DNA of 27,246 bases from a virus: IMG/VR virus record IMGVR_UViG_3300011118_002389, positions 1 to 27,246 of that record; one strand, given 5' to 3'. Both the position numbers and the translations under genes were made by a program. Every line of letters starts with the position of its first letter. Positions within the stretch are counted from its first letter, which is position 1. The notes beneath the pieces are model-generated. The model saw nothing but the letters and a program-made list of their open reading frames with translations. It was not told where the DNA came from and searched no databases. Positions 587 to 27,246 of the stretch are shown here, one piece after another.

Positions 587-637
587 AAAAAATAAGAGGC
601 AGTAAGAAGAAAGGAGTGTAAAAAAACTTACTGCCTC
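587..637 (-). terminator. rho-independent terminator of the late operon
   Basis: Read on the minus strand, GAGGCAGTAAG (637-627) pairs perfectly with CTTACTGCCTC (606-596) across a 20-base loop, and the stem is followed by TTATTTTTT (595-587). An 11-bp stem plus T-tract after the last phage gene fits an intrinsic terminator for the leftward late transcript. The loop is longer than usual. Confidence 0.65.
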
Positions 638-646
638 TCCGGCCGC

Positions 647-744
647 GGTCAATGATAACTTTGTTCAGTGCATATAGCTTTTATTGTGACTTTGTTTTTT
701 ATATCTGGCGGGGATATTGAAATAACTTCGTAAACTTTATTGTT
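647..744 (-). repeat. 98-bp direct repeat, copy 1: orphan 3' end of tail-tip gene
   Basis: This stretch is base-for-base identical to 1958-2055, the last 96 bases of the tail-tip gene plus two bases beyond its stop. Here it has no start codon and follows the methyltransferase stop by six bases, so it is an untranslated gene remnant. Identity breaks off sharply at both ends. It is followed by the terminator at 587-637. Confidence 0.9.
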
Positions 745-750
745 TTATGT

Positions 751-1791
751 TCATTTTTTTGCCTCTTCCTTGTCTCCTATCTCTGGGAAAGGATTTCTCC
801 ATTGCCATCCTGTATTTGCTGTTTTCCTGTAAAGTTCTAACCTTCTTATTGTAATTTCTGCAAAAATTGGGTCGATATCAAATGTAAAAACCTTTCTATT
901 AAGCATCTCTCCTGCAATAAGGGTTGTCCCTGAATGAGCAAAAAAATCTACAATAAGATTTCCTCTCATACTACTAGTTAAAATAATTCTTTCAATTGCC
1001 TTCATAGGTTTTTGAGCATAGCATCCAGATACATTTTCCTCTAATCGATAAAATACCTGTTGAATATCTATCCAAACATTCCCTGGTCTTATTGTATTTG
1101 ACTTACTTCGTTCTAAATTTTCTAGTAATTTCCCATTTACCACCTTATAATATCCTTTTAAAACTTTGGGTATATCAGTATAAACAACTTTAAATTCTGG
1201 TTCACCTCTCACATAATGTAAGAGCTCTTGTCTTATCCACATCCAGTTTTTTTGAGTTCCGTATCCTCTTTGATTTCTTAAAGTAATAAAGTTTCTAGGT
1301 TTCAATTCTTTGAATTTTCTCATCAAGACCATTATATCTGGAAGAGGTTGAAAATTATCTTTGTAGTCTGCTCCAATCCAGATATACAGATGGGCATTGT
1401 TGGCCATTATCTTCATAGCATTGTTTATCCATTTTTCTGAAAAATTCAAATATTCTTTCAAGCTTAGTTTAAATAGGTTTTCCGTGTTTGCATTCCCAAC
1501 CATAACATTATAAGGTGGATCATTTACTATAAGTTCAGCCTTTCTGTTTCCTAATATTTTCTTAACATCTTCAATTTTAGTTGCATCGAGTACGCCTACT
1601 TTATGTCCTTTGATTGGGTCCTCCCATATTTCGCCATATTTTATCCTGCAAAGTGGTAATATTTTCTTTTTTAATATACCATGCAAATCTAGGCGCTTAA
1701 GTTTTTCAGTGGTTCTTTCTTTATCTCTATATTTTTCAACCCCATTTAACTCAGGGAATAAACCTAAGTTTTTTGTATCTCTTGTCTTCAT
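751..1791 (-). CDS. DNA methyltransferase, beta class (N6-adenine or N4-cytosine)
   Basis: The 346-aa protein would methylate the exocyclic amino group of adenine or cytosine at a specific DNA site using S-adenosylmethionine. Catalytic motif IV is NDPPYN at residues 90-95; an AQKP motif X is at 259-262, motif I (FAHSGTT) at 284-290 and DIDP at 305-308. The order DPPY, target-recognition region, then FxGxT is that of the beta class, and DPPYNV favours N6-adenine. No restriction endonuclease is adjacent, so it looks like an orphan phage enzyme that could protect against host restriction or alter regulation. The ATG at 1791 has an AGGAGA site. It lies between two perfect 98-bp copies of the neighbouring tail gene's end, which marks it as an acquired cassette. 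A TTGACA about 40 bases upstream hints at its own promoter, but no well-spaced -10 is clear. Confidence 0.9.
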   Translation of the reverse strand: MKTRDTKNLGLFPELNGVEKYRDKERTTEKLKRLDLHGILKKKILPLCRIKYGEIWEDPIKGHKVGVLDATKIEDVKKILGNRKAELIVNDPPYNVMVGNANTENLFKLSLKEYLNFSEKWINNAMKIMANNAHLYIWIGADYKDNFQPLPDIMVLMRKFKELKPRNFITLRNQRGYGTQKNWMWIRQELLHYVRGEPEFKVVYTDIPKVLKGYYKVVNGKLLENLERSKSNTIRPGNVWIDIQQVFYRLEENVSGCYAQKPMKAIERIILTSSMRGNLIVDFFAHSGTTLIAGEMLNRKVFTFDIDPIFAEITIRRLELYRKTANTGWQWRNPFPEIGDKEEAKK

Positions 1792-1957
1792 AATTCCATC
1801 TCCTGACTATATATAAAGCCACCGCATGTCAAACACCTCTGAGTTTAGTCGATAGTATTTATCGCATAGTAGAAAAACCCTAAAGCTTAAAAATTATTCT
1901 CCCCGCAAAATAGTAATCATGACCCAATTTTTTAATTTTACCGCGATACTTAGAATA

Positions 1958-2055
1958 GGTCAATGATAACTTTGTTCAGTGCATATAGCTTTTATTGTGA
2001 CTTTGTTTTTTATATCTGGCGGGGATATTGAAATAACTTCGTAAACTTTATTGTT
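1958..2055 (-). repeat. 98-bp direct repeat, copy 2: genuine 3' end of tail-tip gene
   Basis: Identical to 647-744. This copy is in frame with the tail-tip gene and encodes its last 31 residues and the TGA stop region. The two copies are 1311 bp apart and enclose the methyltransferase gene and about 165 bases of noncoding DNA upstream of it. Confidence 0.9.
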
Positions 2056-4662
2056 GTATCGCTCAGGAATAACATCATAAACATTTATTTTTATTGCGTC
2101 TGTTGGTCTTAATTTTAAACCGATAAGATTAGTCTTAAAACTAATTTCAGCCCACGGTTTTGTATATTTTTGCACTTCATAATATAACAAGTTATTGGCA
2201 GTTTCAGGGTGTAATATCCAGTTTGCGTTGATAATCTTTTTATTGAATTTGGTATTGTCTGTTTCACCGTTATGAGTACTATGGGCTGTAATACATTTGT
2301 TTTTCACCCAATCTACTGTATATCCATTATTAGTAAACCAAGAACTTGGATTCCAATTAGTACCATCTCTGTTTGCATATACCGTTTCCATCTTGTACCC
2401 ATTTATATCAGCACTGTAACCATAGTTGATTTCAAATGTATCATAAACATTTGTAGCTTTAGGGTTAAAGTCAATTGACCCATCTTCAATATTAGTATGG
2501 TCAAAAAGATGACCAACTTCATGCCAAGATGAAAAATCATTATGCCACCAGTCCCAAACATTACAATACCATTTACCATCGAATAAAAATACTCTTGTTC
2601 CACATTGAGATGCTATTTGTGAAAATATCTTTGTTATTTCAACCTTTTTGTTTATGTTCCCAGCAAACAACCATTGGTCATAATAAGTCCATGCAGAAGG
2701 TTCACTTGGTTTTCTTTGAGCACCGGCTTTATTAAAACTGACTACATCGATTTCATTATCAGTAAGCCCCATTTCTTCACGCAATAAACTTTCTATAATT
2801 TGAATAGGATTTTTAATCAGTCCCCCCGAATCAGCATACCCGTATGCAATTCTTCCAGAAGCCCACGTTCCCGCTTTTCTTCCTTTTGGAGTCACATATA
2901 CATCAGATTGATTTGATTCTGATTGCGAATCTTTATCTGAAACTTCTACGTCCCAACGTTGTGGTATCAATTCAAATTTAGGTCTTATACCCCCAACCCA
3001 GTATTCATATCCAACTGGTTCTACCTTTGGTGCAGTATATTCTATTTTTTTAACTTTTCTACCGCCCTTCAAATAAACACCATGAAATTGAATATGGAAG
3101 TTTTTTAAACGTATGAGGCCTCCTACAACACGTATTCCAACTTTATACCTTGATAACTTTTCAAAATTTATAAATCTACCTGTTGGATATTCGGGAGCAG
3201 TAGAACGCCAGGGGAAACTGAAATTATCTGGATTATTCCGATTATCTTCATTAAACTCTGTTAAATAATCACTAAGGTTGTGCAACGGAAAATATGTGGC
3301 ATAAAAATCAACAGGTGAGTCGCATTGTAGCGCATTATATGTTTCATCGCCTTTTATTATTTTAATGCCTAAATCCTTAAACATATCAACAGAAACATAT
3401 TCTCGTGTTGTTGGATTAATGACAGTGAAATCATTAATAGTGTGACATCTTATCCGGTATATTGTGGGTGTGTTTTCGTTCTCTTCTGTTTCATCTACCC
3501 ATGCACGACCCTCACCGCCTTCAAGAAGGTGAATGCTGTTCCATCTTTGTTGTTCTCCGTCTGTTTTTATAGTGAAGACAAAACTATTTTCACCAGTTAC
3601 TTTTCTTTGTATATCCGCTACTAATCTTATTTCTGTTACATAATAGTCGGAGTCAAGGCCGAAATTCTCAAATGTAAACCAGTGATACCCCTGTCCTAAT
3701 TCAGCGTAAGTAGTGTTGAGTTCACCTGCAAGTAACCCATCTGAATCGAGTGCTTTATGAACTTCATCTTTATAGTCACCCTCACCCTCAAATTCGTATT
3801 CGTATTCTGATGGGCGTATATAACCTCGCAATTGTGCTTCATCTGAAAGAGTAAACCAACTGGTTTCATCTCCCGAATATCCATAAGAGGGGTCGTATAT
3901 TTTTATGAGTTGGTCATTTCCGGTTTCCTTTATAATCATAGACGAACCTGTTCCATCAGGTCCTGTCATGGCATTAAAATGGTCAATGGTGTGGCCAGCA
4001 AACACATATTTGTAATTTGCTTTATCAACTAAGATAGATGGTATTGTGAGCCTACAGCCTCTTTTTAAATAAAAATCTTGGGATGGGTTACTAACATCGT
4101 CTCCAGATGGTGTCATATAATCACCATATACAATTTGTTTTGGTTGCCCGATGAATTTAGTTTCAATGGTTGGATATTCTTCCTTAGTGAAATCACTTGA
4201 AGGAATAACTTTATTATATAATTGAGGTGAAAGAACACATTTAAAAACGATTTTGTTGTTGTTATAATTACAGCTTTTAATATGACCATCAAACAATCTT
4301 AATCGGTTTGCTTGAACCAAAGCAGTATTATCTAATATGTAATATTGAACCTGTGTGTTAATTAAATCATATTCTAATATCTCTTTTGCTATATTAGACG
4401 CATTACTAATTTCAAAGGATAATTGCGGAATCTTGTTTCTTGCTTTATCCCAAACGTCGGCATGATAAGGTGAGGTCAATTTAATTGCCTTTGAAGTTAA
4501 AACATCTTTATATGTAGTACTGCCTATGGTTACAGGAATTGTTGAAAGATAGCCGTATTGATTACCCTGATTTATCAGTTCAGTTATTTCAAGTAAATAT
4601 ACAGGTTCAGCATTTTTAAGTTGTATAAATGCTTTCTGAAAATCATTCAGGGTTCTTGGCAT
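1960..4662 (-). CDS. tail hub/tip protein
   Basis: A 900-aa protein in the position where long-tailed phages encode the central tail hub or tip, after the tape measure and distal tail genes. The N-terminal ~150 residues look like a tail attachment domain. Around residues 660-710 the pattern of a repeated INKKVEITKIFSQIASQ-type helix followed by an aromatic strand resembles the hub fold of phage baseplate proteins (family-level inference by position and pattern). The middle is a large beta-rich region, probably for host contact. It starts at the ATG directly after the stop of the previous gene with a GAGGAA site. Its 3' end is duplicated at 647-744. I see no peptidase or lysozyme motif in it. 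Confidence 0.65.
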   Translation of the reverse strand: MPRTLNDFQKAFIQLKNAEPVYLLEITELINQGNQYGYLSTIPVTIGSTTYKDVLTSKAIKLTSPYHADVWDKARNKIPQLSFEISNASNIAKEILEYDLINTQVQYYILDNTALVQANRLRLFDGHIKSCNYNNNKIVFKCVLSPQLYNKVIPSSDFTKEEYPTIETKFIGQPKQIVYGDYMTPSGDDVSNPSQDFYLKRGCRLTIPSILVDKANYKYVFAGHTIDHFNAMTGPDGTGSSMIIKETGNDQLIKIYDPSYGYSGDETSWFTLSDEAQLRGYIRPSEYEYEFEGEGDYKDEVHKALDSDGLLAGELNTTYAELGQGYHWFTFENFGLDSDYYVTEIRLVADIQRKVTGENSFVFTIKTDGEQQRWNSIHLLEGGEGRAWVDETEENENTPTIYRIRCHTINDFTVINPTTREYVSVDMFKDLGIKIIKGDETYNALQCDSPVDFYATYFPLHNLSDYLTEFNEDNRNNPDNFSFPWRSTAPEYPTGRFINFEKLSRYKVGIRVVGGLIRLKNFHIQFHGVYLKGGRKVKKIEYTAPKVEPVGYEYWVGGIRPKFELIPQRWDVEVSDKDSQSESNQSDVYVTPKGRKAGTWASGRIAYGYADSGGLIKNPIQIIESLLREEMGLTDNEIDVVSFNKAGAQRKPSEPSAWTYYDQWLFAGNINKKVEITKIFSQIASQCGTRVFLFDGKWYCNVWDWWHNDFSSWHEVGHLFDHTNIEDGSIDFNPKATNVYDTFEINYGYSADINGYKMETVYANRDGTNWNPSSWFTNNGYTVDWVKNKCITAHSTHNGETDNTKFNKKIINANWILHPETANNLLYYEVQKYTKPWAEISFKTNLIGLKLRPTDAIKINVYDVIPERYNNKVYEVISISPPDIKNKVTIKAICTEQSYH

Positions 4663-5517
4663 CTACAATTCCTCCGTAAATAAGAACCCGTAAGAATATG
4701 TACCGTGTGCTGGAGATTTACTCTTAAAAATATTATCTTTATATCTGATTAAACTCCAGTTTTCATTTTCATCTCTTAACCAAAACGGATACTTGCCATA
4801 TTGAACTTCTTGTGATTCTAAAAAATTAATTAATCTATCATGGTCTGCTTTAAATCCTTCAAAAGATACAACTTTTTGATTTTGAGTATTATAAGGTTCA
4901 ATTCCTAATAAATTACCACCTGAAGTTTCTGCCTGTTTTCCTATAATATTTGTTTGACTATTAAAAGGGAAAGTGTAACCTTTATCTAACTCAATAAATC
5001 TTGCACCCCCAATGGTAAAGTTATCAATACCAAAAATCAATTGTGGCGTATCGTATACCATTAAATTCACCCTAATATACTTTGTATCAACATTAAGTTT
5101 GTAATCGGCATCGGACGTTGCATGTCCTATTGTTTTTGTAATCTGTGTCCAATCACAATTAGAGGTCGCAGTTAATGGATAAAATGTATTGAGCTCAGTC
5201 ATTTCAGAGTCATGTTCTGTAATTCTAACTACCCCATAACCTGAACTGTAACTTTCAACTTTGTACCAGAAACTAAGGTCGTACTGGACGTTGGCTTCAT
5301 TTACTACTGGCATTACATTACTTTCTAAAACTCCAGTAAAGGGACCGTAGTAAAAAACACAACTATAGTTTCCTGATTGAGCATCATTCCATCTTAATAC
5401 GTATGATATAGCATTACCATCCCTATTAGCCCAGTTGACAGGCCTTGTAGGAGTTGAAGGTGTCCAACGTTCAAAACCGCAATTAGCAACAAGTTCTTCT
5501 TTTAAAGCAATTTTCAT
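4663..5517 (-). CDS. distal tail protein with carbohydrate-binding-like N-terminal domain
   Basis: The 284-aa product begins with a NCGFERW segment (residues 13-19) followed by a jelly-roll-like series of beta strands to about residue 170. This pattern is typical of CBM4/9-type carbohydrate-binding modules. The remaining ~110 residues, ending FLFTEEL, look like a tail-type domain. It lies between the tape measure and the tip gene, so it is likely a distal tail or adhesion component exposed at the tail end. The ATG overlaps the tape-measure stop (TAATG), indicating translational coupling. The carbohydrate-binding call rests on motif pattern only; it could equally be a plain Dit-like structural domain. 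Confidence 0.55.
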   Translation of the reverse strand: MKIALKEELVANCGFERWTPSTPTRPVNWANRDGNAISYVLRWNDAQSGNYSCVFYYGPFTGVLESNVMPVVNEANVQYDLSFWYKVESYSSGYGVVRITEHDSEMTELNTFYPLTATSNCDWTQITKTIGHATSDADYKLNVDTKYIRVNLMVYDTPQLIFGIDNFTIGGARFIELDKGYTFPFNSQTNIIGKQAETSGGNLLGIEPYNTQNQKVVSFEGFKADHDRLINFLESQEVQYGKYPFWLRDENENWSLIRYKDNIFKSKSPAHGTYSYGFLFTEEL

Positions 5518-24408: not shown

Positions 24409-24515
24409 TATGTACCTTTTAAAATTAAATACACTTGTTTTTAAACCTTCGTTCAAGTTTTGAAAAACTCTGCGCTCAAGTATGAATGATAATATGTTAA
24501 TGATAATATACCCAT

Positions 24516-24582
24516 ATTATCTCTTTAATATTATCTCTTTAATATTATCTCTTTAATACTATCTATCTATCTATCTATCTAT
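24516..24582. repeat. tandem repeats: 14-mer x3 followed by CTAT x6
   Basis: ATTATCTCTTTAAT is repeated three times without change (24516-24557), immediately followed by a CTAT microsatellite of six units (24559-24582). This lies in the 262-bp gene-free stretch before the zinc-motif gene and next to the 11-bp iterons. AT-rich direct repeats of this kind occur in replication origins as unwinding elements. Confidence 0.9.
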
Positions 24583-24641
24583 GGAGCAAGGTTTTTCAAA
24601 GATTCCTTATAAGTCGTTGCTATTAACATGCGTTATCAGTA

Positions 24642-24674
24642 TCAAAGTTTACTCAAAGTTTAATCAAAGTTTAC
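24642..24674. repeat. 11-bp iteron-like direct repeats x3
   Basis: TCAAAGTTTAC, TCAAAGTTTAA and TCAAAGTTTAC are consecutive at 24642-24652, 24653-24663 and 24664-24674. The 11-bp period places them on one face of the helix, the hallmark of protein-binding iterons in replication origins. They precede the 14-mer/CTAT repeats and a candidate replication gene. The third overlaps the stop region of the 73-aa gene. Confidence 0.75.
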
Positions 24675-24892
24675 TCGAACTCTATACTCTTCTTATCGAC
24701 ACAATATTCATGACTTAAATTTCTTTTTTTTTTTCCAAAAAGTGAAATTAATAACTTACCCTCTGGAGATTCTCTAAATTGTTTTCTCTCTATTGGACTC
24801 ATTTCTTTAAGTCCCAATTTTTTAAGTTCTTCGTTCATAACATTAAATACACAAATGACTCTTTTTTTACTTTCAAATAAATAATAGTTCAT
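24671..24892 (-). CDS. hypothetical early protein, 73 aa
   Basis: The protein is small, basic and helical, with a KGLKEMSPIERKQF-type middle and a lysine run over a stretch of eleven A residues (prone to slippage). I do not recognise the family. The ATG at 24892 lacks a clear ribosome binding site, so the start is uncertain; ATG 24838 is an alternative. It lies divergently from the HTH gene across the palindrome region and could belong to the early leftward operon. Confidence 0.4.
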   Translation of the reverse strand: MNYYLFESKKRVICVFNVMNEELKKLGLKEMSPIERKQFRESPEGKLLISLFGKKKRNLSHEYCVDKKSIEFE

Positions 24893-25228: not shown

Positions 25229-26152
25229 CTAACTGACTCTTACCCTTTTCATACTCCTTTTCGCTTTATCCACTATTGAATTATTCTTGTAGTAGTCTGC
25301 CAGTTCTTTACCATCTACCAGAGTCAAATACCTACGCGTCATTTCAAATGAAGTATGCCCCAAAGAATGTTGTAATAAAGGTCCAGGCATTCCATTGATT
25401 GCATTAATTGATGCCCAACTATGCCTTAACAGATGTGAATACACTTTCTTCTTCAAAACTATCCAACCAACATCCCGAAACATTGCTGTCACAGAACTCG
25501 GTAGAAGTCTCACTCCTTCTTTAGTTGATGGGAACAAATACTCACTCCCTTTAAACAGTCGATTTCGTTTCCTCAGCCATTGAATCAACTCTTTTCTCGT
25601 AACGTTACCGAAATACACTACCCTCCATTTCTTACCCTTACCCAAAACCTTGACACTATTGTTATTTGTATCCAAATCATCCAATGTAATGCCTAAAATT
25701 TCAGAAATACGTAAGCCACTGTCGTATAAAAGCCTCATTATCATGCCATTCCTTTGGTATTTAGCGTCTTTACGTTGTTTCATGTATAAAATCATTAATT
25801 CTACTTCTGCTGGCTGTAAAACATCTTTAATTTGGGTTTCTGCTTTTTTGTACCCCACCCCTGCTGCTGGATTCTTTTCTACGTATTCCTCCTTCACTAA
25901 AAAGTTGAAGTAAGCTTTCAGATGTCTCAATCTTCCATTCTTAGTAGTAGTTGAACTCGTCTGTTCTGTCAGATATTCCTTTACTGTACCCTTATCGACA
26001 TCTTGAAAGAGTATGTTCTTCTTCCTCAGCCATTTATAAAAATGACCTATGAACGAAGTATAGTCAATTAGCGTAGCTTCTGTACGCTCTCTAAATTTCA
26101 ACTCCCTCAAAAAACTTTCAAGACACTGTGATGCAAAAACATCATCTTCCAT
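25229..26152 (-). CDS. tyrosine recombinase integrase
   Basis: The ATG at 26152 (307 aa) has AAAGGAGA upstream; a GTG 18 codons further upstream lacks one. The protein has the XerC/D-like core-binding domain (residues ~5-90) and the catalytic domain (~110-290). Catalytic residues are R148 (GLRISE), a K172/K174/K175 group (KGKKWR), H240 and R243 (HLLRH), H266 (LGHTS) and Y275 (RRYLTL). It would integrate and excise the phage at its att site. It stands alone, with a possible -10 TATAAT at 26280-26285. It lies on the 5' side of the tRNA-Lys gene, unlike most tRNA-targeting integrases; see findings. Confidence 0.92.
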   Translation of the reverse strand: MEDDVFASQCLESFLRELKFRERTEATLIDYTSFIGHFYKWLRKKNILFQDVDKGTVKEYLTEQTSSTTTKNGRLRHLKAYFNFLVKEEYVEKNPAAGVGYKKAETQIKDVLQPAEVELMILYMKQRKDAKYQRNGMIMRLLYDSGLRISEILGITLDDLDTNNNSVKVLGKGKKWRVVYFGNVTRKELIQWLRKRNRLFKGSEYLFPSTKEGVRLLPSSVTAMFRDVGWIVLKKKVYSHLLRHSWASINAINGMPGPLLQHSLGHTSFEMTRRYLTLVDGKELADYYKNNSIVDKAKRSMKRVRVS

Positions 26153-26307
26153 TTTAATTTCTCCTTTTTCAAAAATAAGCGCTTTAAATTTAATCTTCAT
26201 TTTCACTATATAGATACATTATGTTCTTGACCTCCTTTCACTTAAAATAAGCGGTTCTAAACTCACATTCTTTGTAATAATTATAGTTCATTTTGAAAAA
26301 TTTTTAC

Positions 26308-26336
26308 TTGAAAGTGTTACTATTAGTGGGTATATA
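26308..26336 (+). promoter_or_regulatory. promoter of tRNA-Lys
   Basis: TTGAAA (26308-26313), 17-base spacing, TATATA (26331-26336), then the tRNA begins at 26350. This is a good sigma-70-type promoter, so the tRNA is expressed from DNA between it and the integrase. Confidence 0.6.
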
Positions 26337-26349
26337 TTAAAATCCCGAT

Positions 26350-26423
26350 GCGCCTTTAGCTCAGCTAGGCAGAGCAGCTGACTCTTAATCAGCGGGTCGC
26401 AGGTTCGATTCCTGCAAGGCGCA
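26350..26423 (+). tRNA. tRNA-Lys (anticodon CTT)
   Basis: The gene folds into a full cloverleaf: the acceptor stem GCGCCTT pairs with AAGGCGC, D-loop TTAGCTCAGCTAGGCAGAGCA, anticodon stem GCTGA/TCAGC with loop CTCTTAA (CTT, reading AAG), and GGTTCGATTCC in the T arm. The discriminator base is A, and no CCA follows, so CCA is added enzymatically. Whether it is a host gene next to the prophage or carried by it is not decided here. Confidence 0.97.
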
Positions 26424-26502
26424 TTTTGTTGTTCCTTAGAGAGATGTATAATTATCGCCGCCGGGTTCAGCCTGCCCTCAATCAAGAAGAGATATTTCCT
26501 GT

Positions 26503-26574: not shown

Positions 26575-26759
26575 CACAAAAAAATACAAAATATTTTTGC
26601 AAAAAACTTCCTTCCCTTTGGCAGGTTTTGTCAGTAGACTTCTGTGTGTTTATATCAACAATGTAGATTTTTGACTTGCTTATTGGTGAGCATAAGTTAT
26701 TTTATAATGGATTACTTTAAATATTAAGGATATGCAAATTAATGGCAATGAAAGCGACT

Positions 26760-26822
26760 AAAACTGGCAAGGCGTTGCATAAAAGACAAGAAATACTCTT
26801 ATCTGATCCATTCAATACAATT
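26760..26822 (+). repeat. 63-bp direct repeat, copy A (within HhH gene)
   Basis: Matches 27063-27125 at 60 of 63 positions and encodes the KTGKALHKRQEILLS unit start. The spacing of 303 bp equals 101 codons, so it marks the period of a tandem domain array at the DNA level. Confidence 0.85.
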
Positions 26823-27062
26823 TTACATATAGGTGATGAGCAATTTTATTTTGAGAAAAAGGAAATAGACATTCTTAGAAGGTTAAACATAAATACTATT
26901 GAGCAATTTATGCTATTAGATCTTTATCATATTGATAATGCTCATGGAATTAATTCTACAACACTTAAATTATTATATAGAAGCCAGGGGATTTTAAACA
27001 GATTAATCGGCAATATTGTAATTGATAATGATGTAAAAATAAAAAAGATCAAGAAATATTCA

Positions 27063-27125
27063 AAAACTGGCAAGGCGTTGCATAAAAGACAAGAAATACT
27101 TTTATCTAATCCATCCAATACAATT
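27063..27125 (+). repeat. 63-bp direct repeat, copy B
   Basis: Second copy of the 63-bp unit at 26760-26822 with 3 mismatches. Similarity stops exactly where the putative IS end begins, which fixes the insertion point at about 27125. Confidence 0.85.
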
Positions 27126-27246
27126 AGAGATCATGTCAATAGTTGTGTAAATTTATTTTTCAAGCAGCGACCTTTCTGCGTTTTTTGTTTTTATTTTTGA
27201 CCTCCTTACCGTTTTCAAATTTAACACCCCCAATGACTTTTTCTAA
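27126..27246 (-). mobile_element. end of an IS256-like insertion sequence (partial)
   Basis: On the minus strand a reading frame enters from beyond the window and stops at 27162-27160, encoding the last 28 residues of a basic protein ending KKRRKVAA. It is followed by TTTACACAA-N4-TTGACA (27152-27135 on the minus strand), a pattern common at IS256-family termini. The element ends near 27126, directly after the broken repeat of the HhH gene. The full transposase lies outside, so the family is tentative. Confidence 0.45.
27160..27246 (-). CDS. partial transposase-like C-terminus
   Basis: Twenty-eight codons are open from the window edge to TGA at 27162-27160. The residues are strongly basic (KNKNKKRRKVAA at the end) after a GGVKFENGKEV motif. 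They are placed at the end of the putative IS256-like element, 35 bases inside its terminus, as expected of a transposase gene. Too little is visible for a firm family call. Confidence 0.35.
   Translation of the reverse strand, partial: LEKVIGGVKFENGKEVKNKNKKRRKVAA

Follow-up and report, generated by a model that had tools for sequence, protein, structure and literature searches.

A phage methyltransferase gene as the probable scar of a Type II restriction-modification operon inserted behind a tail gene with a long target duplication

A solitary DNA methyltransferase (MTase) gene, lying between two perfect 98-bp copies of a phage tail-gene end, is probably the scar of a Type II restriction-modification (RM) operon that inserted behind the tail gene with a long target duplication, and of which only the MTase survives. 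The evidence for this reading comes from the layout of the duplication, from a putative remnant of a restriction endonuclease (REase) start at the junction, from the REase partner of the MTase family, and from flanking duplications at bacterial loci of the same family.

Duplication of a tail-gene end around a methyltransferase gene

The window (the whole 27,246-base stretch of DNA analysed, a virus record) encodes a terminase, a maturation protease, a scaffold, a major head protein and tail genes. Because a tyrosine integrase (25229-26206) adjoins a tRNA-Lys (CTT; 26349-26424), the window is probably a provirus or temperate phage, and the region 25229-26424 is likely one provirus end. Past the tRNA-Lys, a 63-base segment (26760-26822) recurs at 27063-27125 with 95% identity within one open reading frame (ORF); the region (26742-27200) is possibly host DNA beyond the attachment site. 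Short tandem repeats were also observed at 24514-24569 (14-base units, non-coding) and at 24641-24684 (11-base units), the latter array extending into the end of a 73-aa ORF.

A repeat search of the window showed that positions 647-744 (left copy) and 1958-2055 (right copy) are identical at 98/98 bases with a start-to-start spacing of 1311, and the wider match of 647-748 with 1958-2059 is identical at 101/102 bases. No other near-identical repeat of the window approaches this pair in length, and chance cannot account for it. Its flanks diverge abruptly (C at 646 versus A at 1957, and T at 745 versus G at 2056), so that the perfect copies with abrupt ends described in a sequence-only reading of this DNA were recovered in full. 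The same reading had taken the right copy to be the real 3′ end of the tail gene, and this is borne out by the ORF at 1960-4662 on the minus strand, whose last 32 codons including the stop (96 bases), together with 2 further bases, make up the right copy, the original of the pair. This target gene is complete and encodes a protein of 900 aa, called tail-tip-like from its place after the tail genes; a profile search gave no family match for it. The tail gene stops normally inside the right copy, and the earlier view that the duplicated end leaves the gene complete while cargo is added is supported. The left copy (minus strand) begins 6 bases past the MTase stop (751) and is a remnant of the tail-gene end from which no tail protein is translated.

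Between the copies lies a unique insert of 1213 bp (745-1957, minus strand), delimited by the repeat, in which the MTase is the only sizeable gene, accompanied by one 68-aa ORF on the opposite strand; neither the ORFs nor the domain matches in 745-1957 include a recombinase. Read along the minus strand, the order is complete tail gene, 166-base leader, MTase, 6 bases, left copy, 8 bases and hairpin. The leader (1792-1957) is a putative upstream region that is without similarity to the leaders of relatives, and a promoter scan of it gave nothing above chance expectation. The hairpin (595-638, minus strand), a likely terminator, has perfect 12-bp arms (595-606/627-638) and a T-rich tail and folds at -30 kcal/mol (z -4.9). 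Since this strong hairpin stands 8 bases beyond the left copy, it is probably the natural end of the tail operon.

With 0/98 differences between the copies (95% upper bound on divergence, 3.0%), the insertion is judged to be recent, unless gene conversion keeps the copies alike. Recent acquisition of the MTase by insertion, as proposed earlier, is thus supported by the foreign family of the gene, the duplicated gene end and the absence of any change between the copies. No close relatives of the tail gene, the terminase or the repeat were found in IMG/VR, GTDB genomes and sequenced phages, with not every query run against every collection. As no relatives of the tail gene were found, there is no comparable empty site for this phage, and the case for an insertion is therefore built on the architecture.

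The methyltransferase and its nuclease-bearing family

The MTase gene (751-1791, minus strand) is intact and encodes 346 aa. It matches PF01555 in a profile search (E 1.5e-26), contains NDPPYN at residues 90-95 followed by the SAM-binding motif FAHSGTT at 284-290, and has PDB matches to M.RsrI and M.MboIIA. On the order of DPPY before FAHSGTT, the PF01555 match and the PDB relatives, we classify it as a beta-class amino-methyltransferase, and the predicted modification is most likely N6-adenine.

Relatives of this MTase number 291 in GTDB contigs, and the best 80 of the 291, which were kept, share 58-78% identity and are spread over ~20 bacterial phyla. Within three phyla that were sampled, family MTases are rare and patchy (5/147, 19/393 and 15/392 genomes, or 3-5%), and the additional members from these phyla showed no further clear gene-end duplication. 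This patchy distribution across ~20 phyla is as expected for horizontal transfer. The family MTase itself also decays in places, being split in two frames or interrupted by one in-frame stop in L155/L156, L087 and L175 (genomes G218, G006 and G830). At the contig end of another locus, positions 1-20 of L040 translate to DVYKRQ, a peptide typical of residual sequencing-adapter sequence.

In 32/82 family loci, a near full-length Type II REase gene lies directly behind the MTase. This partner matches PADLOC REase_II PDLC03414 (E 1e-41 to 1e-65), and in the loci that have it the REase start codon is at, or overlaps, the MTase stop. The nearest relative of the window MTase among the best 80 of 291 is that of locus L004 (78% identity), which has both MTase and REase. 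A comparison of the two genes gave dN 0.13 and dS 1.6, the latter near saturation, with dN/dS ~0.08, which points to purifying selection on the MTase lineage, although most of this divergence from L004 probably predates the phage. In the protein tree, the window pairs with L004 (SH-aLRT 95) inside a mostly REase-bearing part, and a second virus-borne member, L002, groups with the REase-bearing L009. Loci with and without REase are interleaved on this tree (18 changes, at least 10 of them forced by well-supported branches), so the REase has been lost frequently, and from their positions both viral members look like losers of the REase.

A putative nuclease-start remnant at the junction

Beside the window MTase, only five REase-like codons are present in place of an REase gene. 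On the minus strand, the sequence from the MTase end into the left copy is AAAAAATGAACATAAAACAATAAAG, in which ATG AAC ATA AAA CAA TAA encodes MNIKQ followed by a stop and overlaps the MTase stop TGA. This putative REase-start remnant (MNIKQ plus stop; 740-754, minus strand) overlaps the MTase stop by 4 nt (ATGA), the same overlap that is seen in L033, and its codons 4-5 run into the left copy. The REases of relatives start with MDIKQL, MDLKQL or MNIDQL. Of all ATGs in the window, 907 over the two strands, this one alone opens a start of the form M[DN][ILM][KRDEGN]Q, and the chance of such a start in a 30-base interval of simulated DNA is 1.25e-4. Because the MNIKQ start resembles those of the relatives, we place the beginning of the left copy within codon 4 of an REase gene that has otherwise vanished, its first five codons alone seeming to persist in the window. 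The sequence-only reading had described the left copy as untranslated and six bases past the MTase stop, which stands, but those six bases are better viewed as part of an REase-like start than as a neutral spacer. The REase partner of the MTase family, together with the REase-like start at the junction, leads us to interpret the feature as a decayed RM operon, and the window MTase as a solitary enzyme that would derive from a Type II RM system.

The six bases AACAAT occur at REase codons 4-6 in L008, L011, L015 and L021, and the same six bases open the left copy, making AACAAT a plausible joining point between the REase start and the tail-gene copy.

A further arrangement was observed on a 140-kb virus contig (L002 7029-7742, also L003). 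Behind a family MTase (74%), this contig has an ORF with an REase-like start, MDLGQLKEY, whose remainder is paralogous (57% aa) to the phage ORF that comes next. It appears to be a second virus with a truncated REase, here cut off after ~9 codons and joined to a phage gene. As a case of target duplication L002/L003 was rejected, the REase start being fused to a paralogue of the next phage ORF.

Flanking duplications at bacterial loci of the family

All family loci were searched for direct repeats flanking the MTase, and a cut-off of at least 45 bp and at least 90% identity was applied to the result. Such repeats enclose the MTase at 3/76 testable loci, a count that excludes the window, as against 0/223 for further genes of these loci (p ~0.016 by hand calculation, with a cut-off chosen after seeing the data). 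The three strong cases beside the window are L070, L080 and L010. Most family loci are without a strong flanking repeat, so that the duplication is visible in a minority of presumably recent cases.

In L070 (Planctomycetaceae), a complete acyl-CoA ligase gene is followed by the MTase, the REase and then a copy of the ligase end, which begins 7 nt past the REase stop and is 91% identical over 123 bp. The copy corresponds to ligase residues 565-603 and 682-712 with the middle deleted, or ~440 bp before decay, and resembles the ligase gene of its own locus (91%) more than it does the nearest orthologues (83-84%). In L080, also from Planctomycetaceae, glutamine synthetase III is followed by the MTase, a reduced REase and a 265-bp copy (94%) of the synthetase end and downstream DNA. 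The REase here is reduced to its first 6 codons (MEKLTA) and a C-terminal piece, and the copy abuts the REase 3′ end. The third locus, L010, holds an REase-like ORF, an MTase, the family MTase and then a 75-bp copy (92%) that takes the place of the final MTase codons; for the REase-like ORF (4017-4898) no library match was obtained, and its name reflects position and appearance only. The L010 repeat occurs exactly twice genome-wide in G003 and the L080 repeat exactly twice in G001, and neither is thus a dispersed repeat. The targets at these three loci (an acyl-CoA ligase end, a glutamine synthetase end plus intergenic DNA, and intergenic DNA) are unrelated, and with the window included the duplications measure 75 bp, 98 bp, 265 bp and ~440 bp at four different targets.

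An empty site for the L070 and L080 targets was not found in 80 genomes of their families, where orthologues were present and the downstream genes were not syntenic; the L070 downstream gene was not beside the ligase within 1.5 kb in relatives. Weaker repeats at L033, L048 and L059 were left out of the count because they are short or reach just 83% identity. Around seven methyltransferases of phages that are distant relatives, no flanking duplication was seen, except for short gene-start repeats at L190 that recur several times.

Two of these loci contain additional RM genes. In L010 (4017-7056), the family MTase lies behind the different REase-like ORF and MTase, with the whole block within one target duplication, and these stacked RM genes may have moved together. 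In L080 (6156-7919), an ORF with HEAT repeats and an MTase motif lies at the duplicated copy, followed by a possible second Type II REase, so repeated RM insertion at one spot is possible.

Proposed mechanism and alternative explanations

Under the preferred explanation, an RM operon (MTase, then an overlapping REase gene) would have inserted behind the tail gene with a long target duplication. By a two-step route, a complete operon would have arrived with its target duplication, after which a deletion at AACAAT would have removed the REase along with the first part of the copy; the original duplication would have exceeded 98 bp, because the deletion ran from REase codon 4-5 into the copy. By a one-step route, a variant of this explanation that we hold tentatively as a real possibility, template switching in repair or replication would have captured the MTase together with five REase codons. 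A replication fork or repair synthesis at the tail-gene end would have moved to a host RM operon as template, copied from the leader through the MTase to the fifth REase codon, and returned to the tail gene at AACAAT, 98 bp upstream, so that the phage would never have carried the REase. A single junction would then account for the truncated REase as well as for the point at which the copy begins, and AACAAT is present in the target as well as in the four REase starts named above. L080, however, shows the other route, and supports the two-step order because its copy abuts the REase 3′ end and its REase was deleted internally, presumably later. We regard one-step capture as nearly as good as the two-step route.

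The likeness to integrative elements that restore their target genes, suggested in the sequence-only reading, did not survive comparison with the family. If the 98-bp copies were attL and attR of a site-specific element with its attachment site in a gene end, the exact restoration of the tail gene would be expected, and the window does encode a tyrosine integrase (25229-26206). That integrase, however, adjoins the tRNA-Lys, and a 22-base piece of the tRNA-Lys 3′ end matched nowhere else in the window, the surroundings of the 98-bp repeat included; moreover, the insert lacks a recombinase, and the family relatives lie at unrelated targets with very different duplication lengths and no common attachment core, leaving this explanation hardly credible. 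An assembly artefact, the alternative raised at the outset, would be a misjoining of two sequences sharing 98 bp. The repeat length is near a common k (98 = 99 - 1, a k-mer overlap), and this metagenome-derived virus record is judged from assembled sequence alone. Even a misjoin would still need real reads for the MTase-copy and the tail-copy adjacencies, though, and the REase start runs into the copy, as expected of an evolved junction. The same layout occurs in three other, independent assemblies, L010, L070 and L080, whose copies have diverged and are for that reason not k-mer artefacts, which makes an artefact in the window very improbable. Finally, the repeat could be a by-product of plain tandem duplication, or of homologous recombination between related phages with the MTase already at the tail-gene end. 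Phage genomes are mosaic and gene conversion could maintain such a repeat, yet neither the REase-like start next to the left copy nor the occurrence of this layout in bacterial chromosomes would follow from such an event, and we consider this origin unlikely.

Discussion

Insertion of RM systems that involves no mobile element, and that leaves target duplications which are long (~100 bp) and of variable length, has been described by the Kobayashi group (review PMC3874152; PMC3031569), with H. pylori examples mentioned in PMC4978471 and PMC1643837; Nobusato et al. 2000 and Furuta et al. 2010 are cited here as represented in PMC3874152 and PMC3031569. The window shares with these insertions an RM-derived gene between ~100-bp target-derived direct repeats, an intact target gene, a variable repeat length and the lack of a transposase or recombinase. 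Because of the RM-derived gene, the ~100-bp target repeat, the intact target and the missing recombinase, we assign the window to this class, and it fits as a further instance, with the MTase half alone remaining. Unlike the published insertions, which are in bacterial chromosomes, it lies in a phage late operon and consists of an MTase with a five-codon REase scar. The view of RM systems as mobile elements that lack a known mobility enzyme has, to our knowledge, come mainly from comparisons within Helicobacter.

The window MTase also resembles Type II RM systems with a beta-class MTase and PDLC03414, sharing 58-78% identity and the same overlapping gene order, but with the REase deleted. In having no nuclease, and in its temperate-phage-like genome, it resembles solitary (orphan) phage MTases, from which it differs in that its sequence still shows the particular RM family it came from. 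What is new here is the unusually readable scar of REase loss and the phage setting, RM insertion with a long target duplication being already known. Together with the three independent bacterial cases in its enzyme family, the window takes long target duplication into further phyla and into the late operon of a phage, and at a junction this fresh (0/98 changes) the way in which the nuclease was lost is still readable.

The likely role of the MTase would be self-methylation that protects phage DNA from host or rival RM systems of the same specificity, without a toxic nuclease. Clean excision or tandem amplification of the unit through the 98-bp repeats may be possible by homologous recombination. 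The case offers a testable route from a host defence operon to a phage self-protection gene. A wider proposal, which we put forward as doubtful, is that phages gain solitary MTases by one-step template-switch capture from host RM operons, the same event duplicating the target end and breaking the nuclease gene. If this were true, viruses that disarm and keep host defence genes would generally be recognisable by readable REase-start scars behind their MTases.
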